Source: Catenuloplanes indicus (GTDB lineage Bacteria > Actinomycetota > Actinomycetes > Mycobacteriales > Micromonosporaceae). From it: a stretch of 64,000 nucleotides of DNA. A model generated the notes under the pieces. That model worked only from the letters and a program-made list of their open reading frames with translations. It was not told where the DNA came from and did no database searches. Numbering within the stretch: the first letter of the stretch is position 1; every line of letters begins with the position of its first letter. Below, piece after piece: positions 21,503 through 44,362 of this stretch. A program made the position numbers and the translations under genes. The DNA is taken from positions 3,286,001 to 3,350,000 of the forward strand of contig NZ_JAUSUZ010000001.1 of the NCBI RefSeq assembly GCF_030813715.1. The letters are read 5' to 3'.

Positions 21503-22498
21503 ATGGAGAACGCGATCGAGGCTGAAGGGCTGCGGCGTACCTACCGCAGCCGCACGGGGTGGCTGAGACCGAGGACCACCGAGGTGCACGCGGTGCGCGG
21601 CGTGGACCTGACGGTGGGCCGGGGCGAGCTGTTCGGCCTGCTCGGACCGAACGGCGCCGGCAAGACCACCACCATCAAGATGCTGAACACACTGCTCATC
21701 CCGTCCGCCGGGACCGCCCGGATCTGCGGTTTCGACGTCGAGCGGCAGACCCGCGAGGTGCGCCGGCGGATCGGGTACGTGTTCGGCGGCGACCGGGGCC
21801 TCTACGAGCGCCTCTCCGCGCTGGACAACCTGCGGTACTTCGCCGAGCTCTACGGCGTGCCCGCGCGCGAGCAGAGGCGCCGGATCGCGGAGCTGCTGGA
21901 GCTGGTCCGGCTGACCGGCCGGGAGAACGAGCGGGTCGAGGGCTACTCGCGCGGCATGCGGCAGCGGCTGCACATCGCGCGCGGACTCCTGCACGCCCCC
22001 GAGGTGATCTTCCTGGACGAGCCGTCGATCGGCGTGGACCCGGTGGCCGCCCGCGAGCTGCGCGCGACCGTGGCCAACCTGGCCGCGACCGGCACCACCG
22101 TGCTGCTGACCACGCACTACATGGCGGAGGCGGACGAGCTCTGCGACCGGATCGCGGTGATCGCGGACGGCGAGATCCAGGCGCTCGGCACCCCCGCGGA
22201 GCTGCGCCACCGGGCGGACGGGCGGCGCGTGCTGGAGATCGAGGCCTACGGCGTACCCGCTGATGCCCTCGAAGATCTGCAAAACCTTCCGGGGGTACGG
22301 GAGGCGGCCGTCGAGGAGCGCGGACAGGTGCAGGTGGTGACCGTGCAGTCGGACGCGGACGTCGACGTGCAGCAGGACGTGCTGCGCCGGCTGGACGGCG
22401 TGCGACTGGGCCGGGTGACGTCCCGCGAGCCCACGCTGGAGGACGCGTACGTCGCGATCATCTCGGCGGCCGGGAAGAAAGAGCCGGTGATCGTGTGA
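21503..22498 (+). CDS. ABC transporter ATP-binding protein (ABC-2 exporter type)
   Basis: A 331-residue ATPase of the DrrA/NatA kind. Walker A is GPNGAGKTTT, the signature is YSRGMRQRL instead of LSGGQ, Walker B is VIFLDEPSIGVDP, and the switch histidine is in LLTTHYMAEAD. A C-terminal ~100-residue extension (LEIEAYGVPADALEDL onward) is usual for ABC-2 exporters. The gene has no RBS but a -10 box 7 nt before the ATG. It overlaps the first permease by 4 nt (GTGA). With two permeases it forms an exporter for an unknown substrate, possibly a lipid, glycan or drug. Confidence 0.93.
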   Translation: MENAIEAEGLRRTYRSRTGWLRPRTTEVHAVRGVDLTVGRGELFGLLGPNGAGKTTTIKMLNTLLIPSAGTARICGFDVERQTREVRRRIGYVFGGDRGLYERLSALDNLRYFAELYGVPAREQRRRIAELLELVRLTGRENERVEGYSRGMRQRLHIARGLLHAPEVIFLDEPSIGVDPVAARELRATVANLAATGTTVLLTTHYMAEADELCDRIAVIADGEIQALGTPAELRHRADGRRVLEIEAYGVPADALEDLQNLPGVREAAVEERGQVQVVTVQSDADVDVQQDVLRRLDGVRLGRVTSREPTLEDAYVAIISAAGKKEPVIV

Positions 22499-26864: not shown

Positions 26865-27290
26865 TCAGGCCTTGCCGGGGAACCAGAGGTCGATCTCACG
26901 CTTCGCGGACTCCGGGGAGTCGGAGGCGTGCACCAGGTTCTCGCGGTTGGACAGGGAGAAGTCGCCGCGGATGGTGCCGGCCGCGGCCTTGCGGCCGTCG
27001 GTCGCGCCGATCAGCGCGCGGGTGACCGTGATCGCCTCGTCGCCGGAGAGGACCAGCGCGACGAGCGGACCGGACGTGACGAACTCGCGGAGCGGCGGGT
27101 ACCACGGCTGCTCGGTGTGCTCGGCGTAGTGGGCGTCCGCGGCGGCGGCATCGATCGTACGCAGCTCCATCGCGTCGATGGTCAGGCCCTTGCGCTCGAA
27201 CCGTCCGAGCAGCTCGCCGACGAGGCCGCGGCGGACCGCGTCGGGCTTGAGGAGCACGAGCGTGCGCTCGGCCGGGGTGGTGGTGGACAC
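26865..27290 (-). CDS. ndk: Nucleoside diphosphate kinase
   Basis: Transfers the gamma phosphate between nucleoside triphosphates and diphosphates. 141 residues, the usual length. K15 lies in LVLLKPDAVRRG, and the phosphohistidine is H121 in NLVHASDSPESAKREI. GTG start with AGGAGG 7 nt upstream. In actinobacteria ndk commonly follows folC-DUF4233; here two plus-strand genes (27.5-34.8 kb) come between. Its downstream side carries a copy of the dispersed 3' element. Confidence 0.97.
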   Translation of the reverse strand: MSTTTPAERTLVLLKPDAVRRGLVGELLGRFERKGLTIDAMELRTIDAAAADAHYAEHTEQPWYPPLREFVTSGPLVALVLSGDEAITVTRALIGATDGRKAAAGTIRGDFSLSNRENLVHASDSPESAKREIDLWFPGKA

Positions 27291-27464
27291 CGAACTGCCT
27301 CCTGGGGTGGATCACCGCGTTCCCGATGGAACCGGCGTGACGTTGGGTACTCAGACTAATAGCCGCAGGTTGCGGGGCAGCCGTCACCCAGCGGATGACC
27401 TGGCCCTTCCCATCCCCCTGCGAACCGGCCTAGCCTGGTTTTCAACACTCCCGGGAGGTCCACT

Positions 27465-30400
27465 GTGGCGAACGGTACCCGACCGATCGCGCCGATCCGC
27501 AAGGTGAGCGCCGCCGTCCTCGGCACCATCGCGGTGTTCATCATGCTCTTCGGCGCGGGCATGACGAGCTGGCCGATCGCGGCGCTCGGCATCGCGCTGC
27601 TCGTCCTCGCCATCAGCCTGCTGGTGACGAACGTGATGCGCCGCGGCCCGCGCGCGCTGGTCCAGGGCACCGCCGAGGTCCGCAGCATCTCCGAGGCGCC
27701 GGTCGGCCAGCAGTACGGCCGGGCCGAGATGCAGGTGCGGATCGACGCGCCCGGCCTGCCGATCGCGGACGTGCGCATCCGCGATCCGCGAGTGCCGGTC
27801 AACAAGTGGCCCGACCCGGGCGCGCTGCTGCCCGTCCTGGTCGCGATGGACGACATGCGGTACGCGCGGATCCAGTGGGACGACGTGCTCACCCACGCGG
27901 AGGCCGCGGCCGGCATGGGCGAGACCGCGTTCCTCGCACCGGCCGACGAGGACGTGGACGAGATGCTCCGCGAGGCGGAGCAGACACCATGGGACCGGCG
28001 CGCGGACGACAACCCCGGCGGTACGCCGCTCTACACCGACGAGGGGTACGCGGCGAGTCCGTACGCGACCGAGTCGTACCCGCCGGAGCCGCCCGCGGGC
28101 GGTGGCGGCGGCGCTCCGGCCGGCGGCGACATCCCGCACGGCCGCACACCGCAGGACGACCGGCCGAACCCGGTGGTCATCCGCGAGACGCCCGGCGGCG
28201 GGATAGTGCTGGAGGGCAGCTTCGTCGCGAAGGACGACCCCGGCGTCACGCAGCTCCCGCACCGGGCCCGCCGCCCCCGCCCGCACCGCACGGATGCGGC
28301 CACGGCCGGGCACCCGACCGGCACCGCGCTCGCCGATCCGCCGCCCGCACCCGGCGCGCGCTCGGTGCCCGACTGGGACGACGACGACCGCGACCCGGAG
28401 ACCGACGTACCGCTCGACGGCCCGTGGTCGTCCCCACCGGAGGAGACCGCGGACCGGCCGTCCGTGGGCGTGACCGACGCCGGGCGGGCCCGCATCTCCG
28501 GGCTGGACGTGCCGGACGGCGACTACTCACCGCGCACCCGGTCGGCGGCCGACCTGGACCCGGAGATGGGCTCGGCGTACTCACCGCGCGGCGCGTCCAC
28601 GACGGCGCCGCCGGCCGGCTACTCGCCGCGGGTCGCGGGCGACACCGCGGACCGGGGAGCCGGCTATTCGCCGCGGGTGGTGCGCGAGTCGTCCGAGGCC
28701 GGCGAGGGTTACTCGCCGCGGCCGGTGCGCGACGTGGAGGGTGAGGCGCGGTCGAATCCGGGGCGGGCACCGCGGAGCGAGGGCCGGTCGGCCGCTCGGC
28801 CGCGCAGTACGGACGACGATGCGGAGGATGACACACGGGCCTCGTCCGCCGAGAGCCGCGGGCGGCGGACGGATGAGGACGTAGCGGCACCGAGGCCGTC
28901 GCCGTTCGTGGACGACGAGGCTTATGCGGATCATGACTCGCACGTCGAGGACGACGCCGCGGCTGGTTCGGCTGCGGAGACTGAGTCTTTCGCTGAGTCC
29001 GGTGCCGCTGCTGCGCCTGGTTCCGGCGACGAGTCCGGTTCCGCCGGTGGGACCGGTTCTGCCGCGGGGGGCGCGTTCCGCACCGCGGCCGCGGCGGCGG
29101 CCGGGGCGGCCGTGGGAGCGGCGGCGGCGCGGTTCCGCAATCGCCGGGATCGGGAGCCGGCGGGCGGCGATCATGAGCCGGAGGAGGTCACGGGCGATCG
29201 GCCGGCGGCGCGGGACCGCTTCGCGTCCGACGCGGATCTGGATCCACCGTCGCCGTGGGCGCGGCCGGCCAGGGAGCGGGATTCGGCACCGGGTGGTGAG
29301 CCGGCCGAGTCCGATGTGGCGCCGGGCGGTGAGCCGGCGAAGGCCGATGCGGCGCTCGGCGGTGAACCGGCCGAGGGCGGTGTGGCGGCGGGCGGGGTCC
29401 GGCCGCGAGGTCCGATCACCGGGCCGGCCGATGTCGCGGTGGAGGGGCCTGCGGTCGCGGCGCCGTCGGCGAGCGCGGCACGCAGCCGCCCCGCCGCGAT
29501 GCCGGCCGCAGGCCCGGCCCCACGTGCCGATGACGATGACCTGGCAGGACGCCGGCCGGGCCGCCGGGGACCGAGCGATGGCGACGGCACCGGCGAGCGT
29601 GATGGCGACGCGGGTCCGCGTGGCGGAGATGTCGGCCGGCGTGGCGATGACCCGGCGACGGGTGCCGATCGTGGCGTCGTATCGGATCGAACGTCGGCGG
29701 CCGGTGCTGCCGGTCCCCGGCCGGTCGCCGGGCCGGGGCCGGTCGGCGAGCAGCGGCCGGGTGGCAGAGCGGCGGGAAGTGCGCCGGGTGGTCCGGTGAA
29801 GGGTCTGATCGCGGGCGTGAAGGGGCTCCTCGGCCGACTGGCCGGGCCGGCATCGCGCGATGATCACGGCCCGGCCGCGCGCAAGCTGGCCACCGCGCCG
29901 AGGCCGCCGGCCACCCCGGCCGGGAACGATCTGGGCCTGCCGTTCGAGGAGCAACGTGCGGCACCGAGGCCACGCCCGGCGCCCGGTGAGCACCGCACGG
30001 CACCCGGCGAACCGGACACGACGACGGCTCGCACCACCGCGACCCCGGCCGAGCGGCATCCCGGCCGGACACCGTCCGATGAGCTGGACGTCCCGATCGA
30101 CGACGAGCGGATGACCGCGTCCCGATCGGACGCGGCGGCACCGGGCGGCACGTCAACGGCGGCCGCCGCCGGTGCCGTAGCGGCGGCAGCAGCGGCCGGT
30201 GCGGCCGCGGCAGCCGCCGACCGGGAGTCCGGGACTGCATCCGACCTGCGGTCCGACCGTGCCTCCGGCACATCCGCCGACGGTGCCACCTCCACCGGAC
30301 CGGCCGTCAACCGGGACATCGCCGCGGACGCGGCCACCGGCCGGGACAGTGCCGCGAAAACCGCGGGCAGCGAGGACACGGGCGCGGGGCACGCGGGTTC

Positions 30401-33400
30401 GCCGGATGCAGCGGCCGGTGCGACGGCTGCGGCCCCGCGGGCGGCAACGCCGGAACCCGCGGATGACGACATCGACATCGCGCTGCACGATGACGTCGAT
30501 CTTCCGCTCGACGACGGCCCGCAGACGCGGGCACCGAGTCGGGTCGTGCCGGGTGGACGCGTTGCGCCCGCATCGGACCCGGTTCCGCTCACCGATCCGA
30601 CGATCTCGCCGGCCGGCGACGCCAACCGGTCTGACCTCGACGACGGAGACACCGGCGGCCGCACCACCGCGACGGCCACGTCTGGCGGGGTCAGCGGCGA
30701 CGCCGAGCCGGTCGCCACCGGTGACCCGGCCGGCACGCCGGACCCGGCTTCTCCGCCGGATCACAAGCGCCGCGCCACGGTCAGCGACAGCACCATCGAG
30801 TCTGATGATTCCGCGCCCGGCGAATCCGGCGGGCCCGCGCTTGGTGGCCCTGCGCCCGGGGAACCAGCATCCGCCGGGCCCGCGCCCGGCAAATCCGGCC
30901 AGTCCGCGTCCGGCGAGTCGGCGACCGGCGGGTCCGCGGCGACCGGCGCCGTGTCCACGCCGGTGGACGGCGGTGCCCGGAGCATGCCCAGGCGGGAGGC
31001 GGACGTTTCGGCGCCACCCGCAGCGGGCGGCATGGTGCGGTTCACCGCTCGCCCCCGGGTTCCGGCGGATCAGGAACACGCCAGCCCGAGCGTGGCCGCG
31101 CCTCCTGCCCGTTCTGCGGAGCCGTCGCCTGGCGGCCGTGCCGCATCATCGGCGGCCGCGGGCACACCGGAGCGGGATATCGCCACCCATGAGCGCGGCG
31201 GCTCCAGGCACCGCGACGCCGACCGGCACGACGACCGCACCGGCCGGGGCGAATCCGGTATCGGTGCCGATCAGCGCAACGCACGCACCGACCAGCGTGC
31301 CGCCGGCACGGACCAGCGCGACGGCGGTGGTGTGGGTGGGCGCGACCGTGGCGGGGTCACCAGGGACCGCGTCTCCTGGGCGAGTACTCCACTGCCCGCG
31401 GACGCGCCCGAACTGGCGCCCCGTCGCTATGCCGGTGCCGGCGAAGAGCAGTCCGGTGACGCGCGGGAGGCCAGCCGATCGCGTCCCGGCGGGAGCGGTG
31501 GGCACCCGTCCGAGTCCGCGTGGTCCACGCCACCGGGAACCGCCCGGCGCACTCCCCCACCGGTCGGCTCCGGCCGCACGATCTCCGCCAGTCCGACGCC
31601 CTCCGACCTCACCGCGCCGGACGCCCGCCAAGACGTGTCCAGCGACCGGAACACGCCCGCCGAGCGGAACCTGTCCAGCGGCCCGAACGCAGCCGCCGGT
31701 ACGAACGTGTCCACCGCCTCGGGCGCGGACACGACCGGGGAAGCGGCCGCTGCCGGGCAGACCGGGGCCGGCGGCGAAGGTCCGTCCGCGCGTTTCGTCG
31801 CCCCGGCCACGGTCGGCCATGACGTGCGGCCTTCGGCGAGCAACGACCCGGAAACCGACCGGACCGGCACCGAACACCCGGCTGGTCCGCGCACCGAACA
31901 CCCCGCCGGGCCGGGCACCGAACCGGCGGGGGCAACCGCCCCGCCGACCGTTCACCCGGGCCGCCCGGTCGCGCCCACCCATCCGGACACCAGCCGAACC
32001 GCCACCGGCCCGGACACCGGTTGGCCGACCGCAAGCCGGGACGCTGACGGACCGGCCACCGGCATCGAGGCCGGCCGGCCGGTGACCGGACCGGCGACCG
32101 CGCATCCGACCGCGGGCATGGGAACGACCCGGCCGGCTCCGTTCCGGCCGGACGAGAGGGCCGACGGCGGCGACCCGGGCACCGGTGCGGAGGGCAGCCG
32201 GCCGGCACAGCCGAGCGCGACACCGAAGCTGCCGCCGAATCCACGGCTGCAGCGCCCGACCGGCAACAAGATCGGGCCGCCACGGCTGCCGAAGCGGCCC
32301 ACGACGATCGAGATGACGCTCATCTCACCGCATTCGCTGCCACCGCTGGAGACGGAAGCTCCCACGGCACCCCAGGCGCCCGCACCGCCCCAGGACGATG
32401 CGACACCGTCCACCGCCGACAGCCCGGGATCGGACTCCGGCTCCCGGACGACCGCACCGGAGGCAACCGGGCCCACGGCCGTCACACCGGATGCCGCGAA
32501 CGGGACGAGCTGGCCGGGAGCGCTGGCCGACGACGTCCGCGCGGCAGGTTCCCGCGATGACCACGGAACGGCGACGCCGCCCGAGGACGGCACCGGACCG
32601 ATGTCCGAGCACGGCGGGCTGGGACCGGTGCTCGGGGCTCAGGTCGTTCCGGGACCGTGGAGCGCGGGCGACGCCCCGCCGGCCGCGCTGCTCGGCTCGG
32701 CGACCACCCGCCCCACCACCCACGCGGATCCGGACCCCGAAGCCCGGAAAGCGGCCACCGGCGCAGACACCGACACCGCTCACGACGCGACGGGTACGGC
32801 GCCGGAGGCTCCGGGCAGCGGCGCGGCTCCGGGCGTACCCGCGCGGGATGTGCCGGAGTCCGCGGAACCGGCGGCGGACGACGCGGGCGGCACCGGTACG
32901 CACGCCGCTCCCGGTCCGCGGGAGCTCGGCGCCGGTCCGCCGGTGTCCGGGATCGGGACCGTCGGGTGGCGGGACGTGGATCCGGCGACCGCGCCGGACC
33001 GGCCGCTGAGCCGGGGTGCGCACCGCGCGCCGGAGGAGGTGCCGGCCCGGTCGCGGTTCTCCGACGAGGCGGGCGGCGCGGCGCTGGATGACCTGATCAC
33101 GGCGTATCCGAGCGCGCGCCCGGGTGCCTCGGGCGGGATTCACGGTGTCGGCATCACGATTCTCGTGACGGAGCTGGACCGCTCGATCGAGTTCTACCGG
33201 GACGTGCTCGGCTTCCACGAGATCGACCGCGGCGAGCGGAACGTGTTCCTCGCGTCCGGTGACACGCGCCTGGTGCTGCGCACCGTGTCCGAGTCACTGC
33301 CGGCGCACGTGCGGACCGTGCACGTGAATCTGGAGGTCGGCGACGTGCAGGCGGTCTACGACGCGTTGCGTCGGAAGGGTGTCGCGTTCGCGCACGAGCC

Positions 33401-33509
33401 GCAGCCGCTCAACCGGGGCGAGCGGCTGGAGCTGTGGGCCGCCGCGTTCTCCGACCCGGACGGCAATGGCATTACGGTGTCCCAATGGAGGACCGCTCCA
33501 CCCGTCTGA
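27465..33509 (+). CDS. Giant membrane-anchored disordered protein with a C-terminal VOC (glyoxalase-fold) domain
   Basis: 2,014 residues in one open frame of 6 kb. Two transmembrane helices lie at about 13-33 and 36-55, followed by an ordered domain of about 130 residues (LVQGTAEVRSISEAPVGQQY, then an acidic part to about 190). From about 200 to 1,880 the chain is low-complexity Ala/Pro/Gly/Thr/Asp. It has five YSPR repeats (about 350-430), GGEPAE repeats, GGPAPGEPA repeats, and scattered acidic motifs such as LDVPIDDE and VDLPLDDG. The last ~125 residues form a VOC domain (HGVGITILVTELDRSIEFYRDVLGF to DPDGNGITVSQW). GTG follows GGGAGG at 6 nt. It overlaps the GT87 gene by 25 nt. Function unknown; the VOC domain may bind a metal or ligand. 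Confidence 0.82.
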   Translation: MANGTRPIAPIRKVSAAVLGTIAVFIMLFGAGMTSWPIAALGIALLVLAISLLVTNVMRRGPRALVQGTAEVRSISEAPVGQQYGRAEMQVRIDAPGLPIADVRIRDPRVPVNKWPDPGALLPVLVAMDDMRYARIQWDDVLTHAEAAAGMGETAFLAPADEDVDEMLREAEQTPWDRRADDNPGGTPLYTDEGYAASPYATESYPPEPPAGGGGGAPAGGDIPHGRTPQDDRPNPVVIRETPGGGIVLEGSFVAKDDPGVTQLPHRARRPRPHRTDAATAGHPTGTALADPPPAPGARSVPDWDDDDRDPETDVPLDGPWSSPPEETADRPSVGVTDAGRARISGLDVPDGDYSPRTRSAADLDPEMGSAYSPRGASTTAPPAGYSPRVAGDTADRGAGYSPRVVRESSEAGEGYSPRPVRDVEGEARSNPGRAPRSEGRSAARPRSTDDDAEDDTRASSAESRGRRTDEDVAAPRPSPFVDDEAYADHDSHVEDDAAAGSAAETESFAESGAAAAPGSGDESGSAGGTGSAAGGAFRTAAAAAAGAAVGAAAARFRNRRDREPAGGDHEPEEVTGDRPAARDRFASDADLDPPSPWARPARERDSAPGGEPAESDVAPGGEPAKADAALGGEPAEGGVAAGGVRPRGPITGPADVAVEGPAVAAPSASAARSRPAAMPAAGPAPRADDDDLAGRRPGRRGPSDGDGTGERDGDAGPRGGDVGRRGDDPATGADRGVVSDRTSAAGAAGPRPVAGPGPVGEQRPGGRAAGSAPGGPVKGLIAGVKGLLGRLAGPASRDDHGPAARKLATAPRPPATPAGNDLGLPFEEQRAAPRPRPAPGEHRTAPGEPDTTTARTTATPAERHPGRTPSDELDVPIDDERMTASRSDAAAPGGTSTAAAAGAVAAAAAAGAAAAAADRESGTASDLRSDRASGTSADGATSTGPAVNRDIAADAATGRDSAAKTAGSEDTGAGHAGSPDAAAGATAAAPRAATPEPADDDIDIALHDDVDLPLDDGPQTRAPSRVVPGGRVAPASDPVPLTDPTISPAGDANRSDLDDGDTGGRTTATATSGGVSGDAEPVATGDPAGTPDPASPPDHKRRATVSDSTIESDDSAPGESGGPALGGPAPGEPASAGPAPGKSGQSASGESATGGSAATGAVSTPVDGGARSMPRREADVSAPPAAGGMVRFTARPRVPADQEHASPSVAAPPARSAEPSPGGRAASSAAAGTPERDIATHERGGSRHRDADRHDDRTGRGESGIGADQRNARTDQRAAGTDQRDGGGVGGRDRGGVTRDRVSWASTPLPADAPELAPRRYAGAGEEQSGDAREASRSRPGGSGGHPSESAWSTPPGTARRTPPPVGSGRTISASPTPSDLTAPDARQDVSSDRNTPAERNLSSGPNAAAGTNVSTASGADTTGEAAAAGQTGAGGEGPSARFVAPATVGHDVRPSASNDPETDRTGTEHPAGPRTEHPAGPGTEPAGATAPPTVHPGRPVAPTHPDTSRTATGPDTGWPTASRDADGPATGIEAGRPVTGPATAHPTAGMGTTRPAPFRPDERADGGDPGTGAEGSRPAQPSATPKLPPNPRLQRPTGNKIGPPRLPKRPTTIEMTLISPHSLPPLETEAPTAPQAPAPPQDDATPSTADSPGSDSGSRTTAPEATGPTAVTPDAANGTSWPGALADDVRAAGSRDDHGTATPPEDGTGPMSEHGGLGPVLGAQVVPGPWSAGDAPPAALLGSATTRPTTHADPDPEARKAATGADTDTAHDATGTAPEAPGSGAAPGVPARDVPESAEPAADDAGGTGTHAAPGPRELGAGPPVSGIGTVGWRDVDPATAPDRPLSRGAHRAPEEVPARSRFSDEAGGAALDDLITAYPSARPGASGGIHGVGITILVTELDRSIEFYRDVLGFHEIDRGERNVFLASGDTRLVLRTVSESLPAHVRTVHVNLEVGDVQAVYDALRRKGVAFAHEPQPLNRGERLELWAAAFSDPDGNGITVSQWRTAPPV

Positions 33510-34777
33510 CCCGGTTCGTCCGGTTCGGCCGCCCCCACCCGGGGGCGGCCGCGCTGTGGGCCGTGTTCGTGGCGACCGCGATCGTCTCGTCCGTGCTGGT
33601 GCTGCACCGCGCGCCGGACGACCGGCTGTCCGACCTGCACATCTATTACGGCGCGGCCGAGGCGGTCCGGGCCGGTGACGCGCTGTACGGGTTCGTGGCG
33701 GAGAACGGCGGTCCGTTCACCTACCCGCCGTTCGCCGCGGTCCTGTTCCTGCCACTGACCTGGATCCCCGAGCTGACGCTGCGGATCGTCTGGCTCGCGG
33801 CGACGGCCGGTGCGGTGGCCGCGATCGGCGCGGCGATGTCCCGCCTGGTGCCCGCGCGGCGCACCGCACTGCTCGCACCACTTCTCGCGTTCGCCGTGCT
33901 GATCACCTCGTCCGCGCAGAGCAACCTGCGGTTCGGGCAGGTCAGCGCGTTCCTGGTGCTGCTGGCGCTGGTCGACGCGGCCGGTCTGACGCCCGCCCGT
34001 CACCGGGGCGTACTGATCGGTGTGGCGGCCGCTATCAAGCTGATCCCGCTGCTGTTCGTGGTCTTCCTGGTGTGGTCCAGGCAGACCGGCGCCGCGGTAC
34101 GGGCGGCCGTCACGTTCGCCGGCTGCGCCGTGCTGGGCGCGCTGGCCCTGCCGTCGGACAGCTGGACGTACTGGTCCGGCACGGTGCTGCGCACGTCCCG
34201 GATCGGCGACCTGGCCTCGACCGGCAACCAGTCGATCAACGGCATGTTGCTGCGCGCGGGTGTCCCGCAGACCGCGGTGTGGGTCGCGGTGGCCGGCGCG
34301 GTCTGCGTCGTGGCGCTCTGGCACGCGCGCCGCGCGCACCTGGCCGGCGAGCCGGGCCGGGCCGCCGTGCTGGCCGGTTGCGCGACCGTGGCCGCGTCGC
34401 CGGTCTCCTGGACGCACCACCAGGTGTGGCTGCCGCTGGCGGCGATCATGTTGATCACCGCGGGCGGCGGACGAGCCAGACCCGTCGCCGGTACGGTCCT
34501 GCTGTGCGCGGCCGTGCTCTCGCCCAGCACGGTGCTGCGCGCCGCCGGGGCGTACCCCGGCCTGGCATTCCTGGGTGACAACGCGCGGACGCTGGCCACG
34601 ATCGCGGTGTGCCTGACCGGGCTCGGCCTCGCCCGGGCCGCCGGTTCCCCGCCGGTGCTGCCCCTGCCCCGCTCGGATCCCGGCCGCCGATGGTCGCGGC
34701 TAGGACAGGATCGTCTTGCGTACGTGCAGCGCGTAGAGCCAGACCAGACCGAAGATCACCCCGAGCGCGGTCAGTGA
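33485..34777 (+). CDS. Glycosyltransferase family 87 (DUF2029) membrane mannosyltransferase-like protein
   Basis: A 430-residue polytopic GT-C protein. The first loop has SDLHIYYGAAEAVRAGDALYGF, with the catalytic-aspartate pattern of GT87, followed by GGPFTYPPFAAVLFLPL. Further signatures are LRFGQVSAFLVLLALVDA, GVAAAIKLIPLLFVVF and STGNQSINGMLLR. Family members such as PimE use polyprenyl-phosphate-mannose to mannosylate lipids or glycans outside the membrane. The ATG lies 25 nt inside the end of the giant VOC gene, so the pair is translationally coupled. Its 3' end overlaps the convergent DUF4233 gene by 78 nt. Exact acceptor unknown. Confidence 0.88.
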   Translation: MEDRSTRLTRFVRFGRPHPGAAALWAVFVATAIVSSVLVLHRAPDDRLSDLHIYYGAAEAVRAGDALYGFVAENGGPFTYPPFAAVLFLPLTWIPELTLRIVWLAATAGAVAAIGAAMSRLVPARRTALLAPLLAFAVLITSSAQSNLRFGQVSAFLVLLALVDAAGLTPARHRGVLIGVAAAIKLIPLLFVVFLVWSRQTGAAVRAAVTFAGCAVLGALALPSDSWTYWSGTVLRTSRIGDLASTGNQSINGMLLRAGVPQTAVWVAVAGAVCVVALWHARRAHLAGEPGRAAVLAGCATVAASPVSWTHHQVWLPLAAIMLITAGGGRARPVAGTVLLCAAVLSPSTVLRAAGAYPGLAFLGDNARTLATIAVCLTGLGLARAAGSPPVLPLPRSDPGRRWSRLGQDRLAYVQRVEPDQTEDHPERGQ

Positions 34778-35056
34778 CCAGTGCAGGAAGCCGCCGGCCA
34801 GTAGCACGATCTGCAGCGCGCTGCCACCGTGCCAGGCCCATGGCCGGCGCATCAGGCCGGCCAGCGCGATCGCGGCCACGGTCAGCGTGATGACCAGGCC
34901 GATCGCGACCGGTCCCAGTTCGCCGCCGAGCAGCCGGATCGGCTGGATGGCGAGCAGCAGGATCACGGCTTCCATGATCAGGGTGCCGGCGCCGAGGCCG
35001 CGCACCGCGCCCTCCGGGTTGCGCAGCCCGGAGGGCTTACGGTCGGGCGTGCTCAT
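34700..35056 (-). CDS. DUF4233 membrane protein
   Basis: A 118-residue protein with four transmembrane helices (LIMEAVILLLAIQPI, GLVITLTVAAIALAG, LQIVLLAGGFLHWSL, VIFGLVWLYALHV). DUF4233 proteins almost always lie directly after folC in actinobacteria, as here, but their function is unknown. Its ATG overlaps the folC stop (ATGA), so it is coupled to folC. The 3' end overlaps the convergent GT87 gene by 78 nt. Confidence 0.9.
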   Translation of the reverse strand: MSTPDRKPSGLRNPEGAVRGLGAGTLIMEAVILLLAIQPIRLLGGELGPVAIGLVITLTVAAIALAGLMRRPWAWHGGSALQIVLLAGGFLHWSLTALGVIFGLVWLYALHVRKTILS

Positions 35057-36378
35057 CGCTTCAACAGCGCCCGTGCGTCCGCGACCGTCACCATCGAGCC
35101 GGTGATCAGCACGCCGACGCCGCTCATGCCGCCCTCGGTGTCCGACTCGGCCAGTTCGACCGCGCGCTCGATCGCATCCGGCATGTTCGGCAGTACGTGC
35201 ACCCGGTCCTCGCCGAAGATCTCGTCCGCGATCTGGGCCAGTTCCTCCGGCGCCATGCAGCGCGGCGACGAGTTCCGGGTCACGATGATCTCGGAGAGGA
35301 CCGGTTCGAGCAGCTCGAGCACGCCCTCCACGTCCTTGTCGCCGAGCATCGCGACGATGCCGACCAGGTTGCGGAACATGAACTCGTCCTCGACGGCCTT
35401 GACCGTGGCGGCCATGCCGTGCGGGTTGTGCGCGCCGTCGACCAGGATCGTCGGCGCGTGCCGGACCCGCTCCAGGCGGCCGGGCGAGTCGACGTTCGCG
35501 AAACCCTCCCGGACGATGTCGATGGACAGCTCCTTGGCGTTGCCGGCGCCGAGGAACGCCTCGACGGCGGCGAGCGCGACGGCCGCGTTCTGCGCCTGGT
35601 GCTCGCCGTGCAGCGGCAGGAAGATCTCGTCGTACCGGGCGCCGAGGCCCTGGAGGTTGAGCATCTGGCCGCCGAGCGCGACGGCCCGCTCGATCACCCG
35701 GAACTCGCCGCCCTCGCGCGCGATGGTGGCGCCGACCTCGGCGCACCGCTCCAGGATCGGCCGCGCCGCCTCCTCGTCCTGCACCGACGTGATCACGGTG
35801 GCGCCGGCGTGGATGATGCCGGCCTTGGCCAGCGCGATGTCCTCGATCGTGTCGCCGAGCCACTCGGTGTGGTCCAGGCCGATCGGGGTGATCACGCAGA
35901 CGCCGGCCTGGATGACGTTGGTGGCGTCCTCCGCGCCGCCGAGCCCGACCTCGACCACGGCCACGTCGACCGGCGCGTCCGCGAACGTCGCGAACGCCAG
36001 CGCCGTGGTCATGTCGAAGTAGGTCAGCGGCTCCGCGTTCCGCGCGTCGATCAGCTCGGCGAGCGGCTCGACCTCGGTGTAGACCGCGGCGAACCGTTCC
36101 TCGGAGACCGGTTCGCCGTCCAGGCTGATCCGTTCGCGGACCGACTCCAGGTGCGGGCTGGTGTACCGGCCGGTGTGCAGCCCGTACGCCCGCAGCAGCG
36201 AGTCGATCATCCGGGCCGTCGACGTCTTGCCGTTCGTGCCGGTCAGGTGAATCGACGGGTACGCCCGCTGCGGGCTCCCGAGTACGTCGAGCAGGTCCTC
36301 GATCTTGCCGAGGTCGAACTCCATGCGGGTGAAGCCGCGCCCGTCGAGCGCGGCCACCGCCTCTTCATAACTGCTCAT
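35053..36378 (-). CDS. folC: Bifunctional folylpolyglutamate/dihydrofolate synthase
   Basis: Adds glutamate to folates. A Mur-ligase-like enzyme of 441 residues. The P-loop is HLTGTNGKTSTARM, with the conserved EVGLGG, ITPIGLDHTEWLGDT and ILVDGAHNPHG motifs. The ATG has GGAAG 5 nt upstream; a GTG 21 nt earlier (36399), behind GGAG, is an alternative. It lies downstream of valS, separated by three tandem hairpins, and overlaps DUF4233 by 4 nt. Confidence 0.95.
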   Translation of the reverse strand: MSSYEEAVAALDGRGFTRMEFDLGKIEDLLDVLGSPQRAYPSIHLTGTNGKTSTARMIDSLLRAYGLHTGRYTSPHLESVRERISLDGEPVSEERFAAVYTEVEPLAELIDARNAEPLTYFDMTTALAFATFADAPVDVAVVEVGLGGAEDATNVIQAGVCVITPIGLDHTEWLGDTIEDIALAKAGIIHAGATVITSVQDEEAARPILERCAEVGATIAREGGEFRVIERAVALGGQMLNLQGLGARYDEIFLPLHGEHQAQNAAVALAAVEAFLGAGNAKELSIDIVREGFANVDSPGRLERVRHAPTILVDGAHNPHGMAATVKAVEDEFMFRNLVGIVAMLGDKDVEGVLELLEPVLSEIIVTRNSSPRCMAPEELAQIADEIFGEDRVHVLPNMPDAIERAVELAESDTEGGMSGVGVLITGSMVTVADARALLKR

Positions 36379-36401
36379 GCCGACTTCCGGTCTCGTCACG
36401 G

Positions 36402-39194: not shown

Positions 39195-39205
39195 CATGAA
39201 GAAGT

Positions 39206-39322
39206 CCGGCGGCGTCCTACTCTCCCACACCCTCCCGAGTGCAGTACCATCGGCGCTGAAAGGCTTAGCTTCCGGGTTCGGAATGTAACCGGGCGTTTCC
39301 CTCTCGCTATAACCGCCGTAAC
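39206..39322 (-). rRNA. rrf: 5S ribosomal RNA
   Basis: About 117 nt. The 5' part reads GTTACGGCGGTTATAGCG and the 3' end GTAGGACGCCGCCGGAC, which pair as helix I. The loop CCCGGTTACATTCCGAACC is the standard conserved region. It follows 23S after an 86-nt spacer. Ends are approximate. Confidence 0.92.
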
Positions 39323-39408
39323 ACTATGAACTTAACAAACCGGGGTGTTCACGGTTGTTTGTTCAGATATCACACAGTGGACGCGTAGCAAACTTTGCAC
39401 GTTTAATG

Positions 39409-44362
<4,954 letters not shown>

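Follow-up and report, generated by a model that had tools for sequence, protein, structure and literature searches.

A predicted membrane-tethered VOC protein with a disordered linker of highly variable length in Micromonosporaceae

We analyzed a 64,000-nt stretch of the Catenuloplanes indicus genome (contig NZ_JAUSUZ010000001.1, positions 3,286,001 to 3,350,000; hereafter the window), in which a single frame at 27465-33509 on the forward strand encodes a protein predicted to end in a membrane-tethered VOC domain. The frame begins with GTG, spans 2,014 residues without an internal stop and is preceded by GGGAGG, a likely ribosome-binding site read directly from the sequence 6 nt 5' of the GTG (27453-27458, forward strand). 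Its coordinates and length are exactly those of an earlier note made from the DNA letters alone (hereafter the original prediction). Four parts follow one another along the chain, all encoded on the forward strand. A two-helix membrane hairpin (residues 11-59; 27495-27641) has helices predicted by AlphaFold at residues 11-32 and 36-59 and Arg or Lys on both outer flanks. The second part is a small beta domain (residues 65-136; 27657-27872), delimited by the predicted strands of the model. The third is a disordered linker of ~1,730 residues (150-1883; 27912-33113), of which 61% are Pro, Ser, Thr, Gly or Ala and none Cys. Last come a pre-VOC strip (DDLITAYPSARPG...) and the VOC domain (together residues 1875-2014; 33087-33506), where Pfam Glyoxalase matches residues 1897-2003 with an E-value of 1.8e-15. 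The predicted helices, the linker and the Pfam match thus agree with the proposed order of a two-helix anchor, a disordered linker of ~1,700 residues and a terminal VOC domain. A search of the 9.2-Mb genome with the N part (hairpin plus beta domain) found one copy.

As far as sequence can tell, the linker evolves as translated sequence. Its coding frame contains no stop in any of the five Catenuloplanes genomes, while the remaining five frames contain 3-29 stops. For each of these genomes, 0 of 200 base-shuffled linkers were free of stops. When the window gene was compared with its four congeners, substitutions peaked at codon position 3 in 16 out of 16 region comparisons. The ratio of nonsynonymous to synonymous substitutions (dN/dS) was 0.32-0.41 for linker residues 171-900 and 0.54-0.60 for residues 901-1860; for the folded parts it was 0.06-0.37 (N domain) and 0.07-0.32 (VOC domain). 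A chance or frameshifted open reading frame was considered and is ruled out by the stop counts, the excess at codon position 3 and the dN/dS values. The third-position content of G and C is a less clean point for the frame, at 0.70-0.87 for residues 401-1900 compared with 0.93-0.98 for residues 1-400 and 0.95 for residues 1901-2000. Gap lengths in the nucleotide alignments were divisible by three in 38 of 43 cases for G004, 46 of 59 for G003, 37 of 53 for G001 and 37 of 82 for G002; the G002 pair is only 60% identical, so its gaps show nothing on the frame.

The N part was detected in 30 out of 61 genomes, including that of C. indicus, and in 161 out of 200 genomes of Micromonosporaceae. We fetched 27 of the 29 relatives and omitted G006, whose contig ends just past the match, and G043, which belongs to another family and matches weakly and in part. 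L031 and L036 are the same locus, as are L032 and L058, and each was counted once. The N part and the VOC domain lie in a single frame in 25 of the 27 relatives and in 12 out of 12 further family genomes, picked partly for long frames. One exception, L059, reaches a contig end. In the other, the G032 orthologue (L048, 4184-8035), a repeat contains a single in-frame TAA, at codon 251. This stop may be genuine, an assembly error or the mark of a pseudogene; eight other genomes of the same genus show an uninterrupted frame that includes the VOC domain. The original prediction had named separate short genes for the N-terminal and VOC parts as the finding that would speak against it. No such pair was found in the genomes examined, where the stop in L048 is the sole split.

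The genomic place of the gene is largely conserved as well. ndk (26865-27290, reverse strand) is divergently oriented 174 nt from the VOC gene and adjoins it in 25 of the 27 relatives, and folC (35053-36399, reverse strand) is the downstream neighbor in 24 of them; in the remaining three the locus stops short of folC. We assigned the names ndk, folC, ileS and valS presumptively from the sequences. Of the 39 family genomes free of an N-part match we inspected ten, and eight of these keep a gene with a hydrophobic stretch, a low-complexity region and a VOC domain divergent from ndk (the hydrophobic stretches were judged by eye from translations). In these eight diverged orthologues (L101-L108) the beta domain is not recognizable and the VOC domain is 32-36% identical (genome search); six of them, at the same place beside ndk, carry long N-terminal tails rich in Lys, Gly and Ala. 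Neither the VOC gene nor ndk was found in G009, a genome that is 69% complete.

Outside the family, the three ndk loci fetched (L109-L111, out of five with an ndk match) contained no such VOC domain at E-values up to 1e-4. The N-part profile gave partial, weak matches in 11 of 298 genomes and, in a second set, in 11 of 296 (E-values 3.8e-14 to 6.9e-4). These actinobacterial proteins match mostly over the beta domain, and over the membrane helices in G422 and G141. The matches of the second set lie in open frames of 47-390 residues, and no VOC domain was found in the six outside-family loci fetched (~2 kb each). These comparisons point to a protein that is conserved within Micromonosporaceae and specific to this lineage. 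The literature searches made yielded no description of it.

An AlphaFold model of the N part, built from three sequences, shows two helices and a beta domain with strands within residues 65-136, with a predicted local distance difference test score (pLDDT) of 73. The beta domain had no PDB profile match at E-values up to 1 and no convincing Pfam match (best E-value 0.008 among 28 members). Hydropathy windows above the cut-off, running from about residue 6-15 to 40-47 and thus two helices' worth, occur in all 27 proteins. Arg or Lys precedes the first helix in 26 of the 27 (the exception is L058) and follows the second in all of them, and the turn between the helices is uncharged in 21. Because Arg and Lys flank the hairpin, the positive-inside rule would put both ends of the chain in the cytoplasm, which suggests that the linker and the VOC domain are located there. 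The reach of the VOC domain had originally been called cytoplasmic or extracellular; the charge pattern favors the first of these over the second.

With the opposite topology the linker and the VOC domain would lie outside, where a linker rich in Ser, Thr and Pro may be mannosylated. The linkers are indeed rich in Pro, Ser, Thr, Gly and Ala and free of Cys in 39 out of 39 proteins. A gene for a GT87 glycosyltransferase (mannosyltransferase-like; 33485-34777, forward strand, likely ATG start), which would fit such a modification, overlaps the 3' end of the VOC gene by 25 nt. A further hydropathy window above the cut-off, found in 3 of the 27 proteins including the window protein (an Ala-rich stretch near residue 900), would also fit, and an additional membrane segment is therefore possible. 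We nevertheless regard an outward-facing chain as improbable. The charges around the hairpin point the other way, as do the N-terminal tails of the diverged orthologues, which are long and basic in six of the eight and short and Arg-rich in the other two. The window near residue 900 is seen in none of the other four Catenuloplanes. GT87 is present at this place in 4 out of 4 congeners but in 0 out of 23 other relatives (three of those loci end at the VOC domain); in C. indicus the VOC and GT87 genes likely form a coupled operon.

The VOC domain is among the best-conserved parts throughout. PF00903 scores 57.8 bits in the window protein, compared with a cut-off of 20.6, and matches at E-values up to 0.001 in 27 out of 27 members. 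The AlphaFold model of the domain (three sequences) contains two beta-alpha-beta-beta-beta units. Foldseek gave 368 PDB matches to this model at E-values up to 0.001, the best being TnmS1 (5umq, E-value 2e-10). The top two hits of the PDB profile search were 5uhj and 5umq, both, by title, from the Streptomyces strain of TnmS1.

We aligned 47 VOC domains with E. coli GloA, whose metal-ligand positions we take to be H5, E56, H74 and E122 (these residues were confirmed in the GloA sequence). The H5 position is occupied by Gly, Ser or Ala and the E122 position by Ala, Thr, Asn, Gly or Ser in all 47, so the four-ligand metal site of metal-dependent VOC enzymes is incomplete here. The H74 position is His in 37, Tyr in 9 and Arg in 1. 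The E56 column depends on the alignment, showing Arg in 27 out of 27 in one case and a mixture with Glu in 7 of 47 in the other. According to a passage of PMC8195603, metal binding in most VOC superfamily members relies on residues in beta1 and beta4 of the two units. The proteins described here share their fold with glyoxalase I, FosA and extradiol dioxygenases and match those family models weakly. The Pfam match and the frequent His at the H74 position could be read as signs of a membrane-held, metal-dependent enzyme (a glyoxalase, a dioxygenase or a thiol transferase), and one or two metal ligands could remain, given that His and the disagreement over E56. We consider such an enzyme very improbable. 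The loss of two ligand positions in all 47 domains makes a glyoxalase-type enzyme unlikely, and all of the NCBIfam VOC-type enzyme models listed score far below their cut-offs (for the domain alone, 29 of 120 bits for glyoxalase I and 29 of 180 for Fos_GSH). From the sequence alignments, the domain is probably a metal-free binding or docking module. The fourth strand of the model carries R1935, a position with Arg in 43, Lys in 3 and Asn in 1 of the 47 domains; this conserved basic residue may possibly serve an anionic ligand.

By fold, the closest likeness is to the antibiotic-binding VOC proteins (TnmS1/TnmS2 and Ble-like), which include the best Foldseek match. These proteins work without metal and have an incomplete metal site; the site is incomplete in the domains aligned here as well. 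They are small, soluble, stand-alone proteins, and the matches are chains of 129-142 residues, whereas here the VOC domain terminates a membrane-anchored chain beside housekeeping genes. TnmS-type proteins may sequester tiancimycin, as a passage of PMC6804068 puts it.

Linker length ranges from 69 to 2,237 residues across the family, a ~30-fold difference. For the window protein and 26 relatives, the five Catenuloplanes have linkers of 1,489-2,237 residues and the other 22 linkers of 69-1,004 (the stop-bearing L048 included), many of them of 69-250; in the 12 extra family genomes the range is 162-1,368. In a FastTree phylogeny of the N part plus the VOC domain of 39 proteins, linkers of at least 500 residues fall into one 15-member clade (local support 0.934), with the exception of L054 (779 residues). 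The linker of ~1,700 residues lies near the upper end of the family range, so its length is a trait of one clade rather than the essence of the protein. The five Catenuloplanes linkers differ in length by 748 residues, and their N domains are 91-99% identical (the N part of Catenuloplanes japonicus is 87% identical to that of the window protein). Such a spread within one genus makes a precise ruler or an exact reach unlikely. The large swept volume and the role as scaffold or sensor that were first proposed are hypotheses that these sequences neither support nor contradict. A loose constraint on length combined with constrained islands fits these sequences better.

Tandem repeats, present in the window gene and longer in L034, suggest how the linker grows. 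Repeat analysis of the window gene found, for instance, a 33-nt tandem repeat encoding GGEPAE-type units (29285-29395, forward strand). For the window gene, 13 of 14 repeat rows have a period divisible by three; for L034, 26 of 26 do. This raises the substantial possibility that the variation is neutral: the protein would have an ordinary short-linker function, and the giant linker of Catenuloplanes would be tolerated slippage and tandem duplication in GC-rich DNA that kept frame and disorder. The repeat periods, the spread among nearly identical N domains, the higher dN/dS of the second linker half and the many short linkers of relatives all fit neutral drift. Drift accounts less well for fourteen linker stretches that are conserved among the five Catenuloplanes (10 of 12 columns invariant), and for the retention of long linkers across the 15-member clade, in which 14 members carry the acidic motif described below.

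The conserved stretches include the island VIRETPGGGIVLEGSFVAKDDPG (residues 238-260; 28176-28244) and the island GNKIGPPRLPKRPTTIEMTLISPHSLPPLETE (residues 1600-1631; 32262-32357), both on the forward strand. The LEG-type core of the first, [VL][ELD]G.[LIFV][VI], occurs in 13 of 22 linkers from other genera (shuffled mean 0.14), and the TIEMTL-like motif of the second in 3 of 22 (shuffled mean 0.00). The amphipathic stretch GPVKGLIAGVKGLLGRLAG (residues 776-794; 29790-29846, forward strand) has a GPVKGLIAGVKGLLGRL-like counterpart in all five Catenuloplanes. The acidic pattern [LV]D[VL]P[IL]D[DG] is matched exactly by LDVPIDD (residues 874-880; 30084-30104, forward strand) and VDLPLDD (residues 1011-1017; 30495-30515, forward strand). 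With these two exact copies in the window protein, the spaced acidic motifs of the original prediction were slightly generous. Its repeats fared as follows: the five YSPR copies are present (residues 354-419; 28524-28721, forward strand), and GGEPAE occurs exactly twice and GGPAPGEPA once. YSPR is essentially a Catenuloplanes trait, with 22 copies across the five proteins (3-5 in each) and presence in 1 of the 22 linkers from other genera. All patterns were selected after the sequences had been inspected, so an excess over shuffled linkers indicates non-randomness, not function. Other patterns are distributed differently: an RRPSPRPR-like one occurs in 11 of the 22 other linkers and in 1 of the 5 Catenuloplanes (where it does not exceed shuffles), PPW..R in 6 and 0, a YPSARP-like one in 2 and 0 (the strip sits at the linker/VOC cut), and Ala/Gly runs in 3 and 4.

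The linker itself could be the working part: its repeated acidic motifs, its amphipathic island and the YSPR repeats would bring partners to the membrane, and the VOC domain would only dimerize or cap the chain. All five Catenuloplanes carry the acidic motif, as do 5 of the 22 linkers from other genera (where shuffling gives a mean of 0.03), and L117 has five copies; together with the conserved islands and the amphipathic stretch this speaks for such a hub. We judge it unlikely all the same, as the acidic motif is found in 3 of the 24 proteins outside the long-linker clade, whereas the VOC domain is among the best-conserved parts in all members.

The acidic motifs also resemble part of the FtsZ tail. 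The C-terminus of C. indicus FtsZ is DDVDVPDFLKNGS, which contains DFLK, and its core of acidic-hydrophobic-D-h-P is common to the linker motifs DELDVP and DDVDLP. Fifteen copies of this core occur in the 27 linkers (seven linkers carry it), compared with a shuffled mean of 0.09 and a maximum of 1. The hydrophobic-basic FLK/R half of the tail is missing from the window motifs, which go on with IDD or LDD; the FLK half belongs to the peptide bound by partners of the FtsZ tail. An FtsZ-tail-like DNA pattern was not enriched genome-wide (23 matches vs 18 in the reversed control); two of the 23 lie in the VOC gene and one in ftsZ. A divisome-linked scaffold might be imagined from these sequences, in which repeats of half an FtsZ tail would engage FtsZ-tail binders, the metal-free VOC domain would be a ligand-controlled switch and the copies of linker and motif would tune avidity. 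We regard this scaffold as a long shot.

Our preferred reading, to which we give a probability of about 50%, is a cytoplasm-facing, membrane-anchored VOC module that is conserved in, and specific to, Micromonosporaceae. In such a protein, in-frame repeat duplication would lengthen the linker. The VOC head, having lost its metal chemistry, would act in ligand binding or docking, probably as a dimer; other VOC proteins are dimers. The linker would keep the head near the membrane and may offer the acidic hD[ILV]P[IL]DD, LEG-type and TIEMTL motifs to partners, while the bulk of its length would be loosely constrained filler.

Several observations weigh against this reading. The turn of the hairpin is charged in 6 of the 27 proteins, and the later hydropathy windows described above would complicate the topology. 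A fold search with the N part returned nothing at E-values up to 0.001. The VOC model has a mean pLDDT of 68, lower over the first 25 residues and around residues 71-90, and the other four models reached 39-47. The retained His at the H74 position and the ambiguous E56 column sit uneasily with a metal-free head. The N-domain dN/dS rises to 0.37 in the comparison with G002. Finally, in neither L050 nor L054 does ndk adjoin the gene, and G015 showed no VOC gene next to ndk. On the sequence comparisons, a VOC module in a predicted membrane-tethered architecture with a variable linker is real and conserved.

A VOC domain is commonly taken for a small soluble enzyme or a drug binder. In the antibiotic-rich bacterial family examined here, a conserved VOC gene appears to be kept at a syntenic place and its product tied to the membrane, while the linker spans from tens to more than 2,000 residues. 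Orthologues over such a wide length range would provide a natural experiment on the purpose of disordered linker length.

Further features surround the locus. Between folC and the GT87 gene, a small membrane-protein frame (~34700-35050, reverse strand) overlaps the GT87 3' end; we take it to be the DUF4233 gene that is usual at folC. A complete ribosomal RNA operon (16S, 23S, 5S; 39204-44361, reverse strand) adjoins valS ~5.7 kb downstream. On the other side, a beta-lactamase-family serine hydrolase (PF00144; 24067-25080, forward strand) follows an ABC-2 transporter set with its ATPase at 21503-22498.

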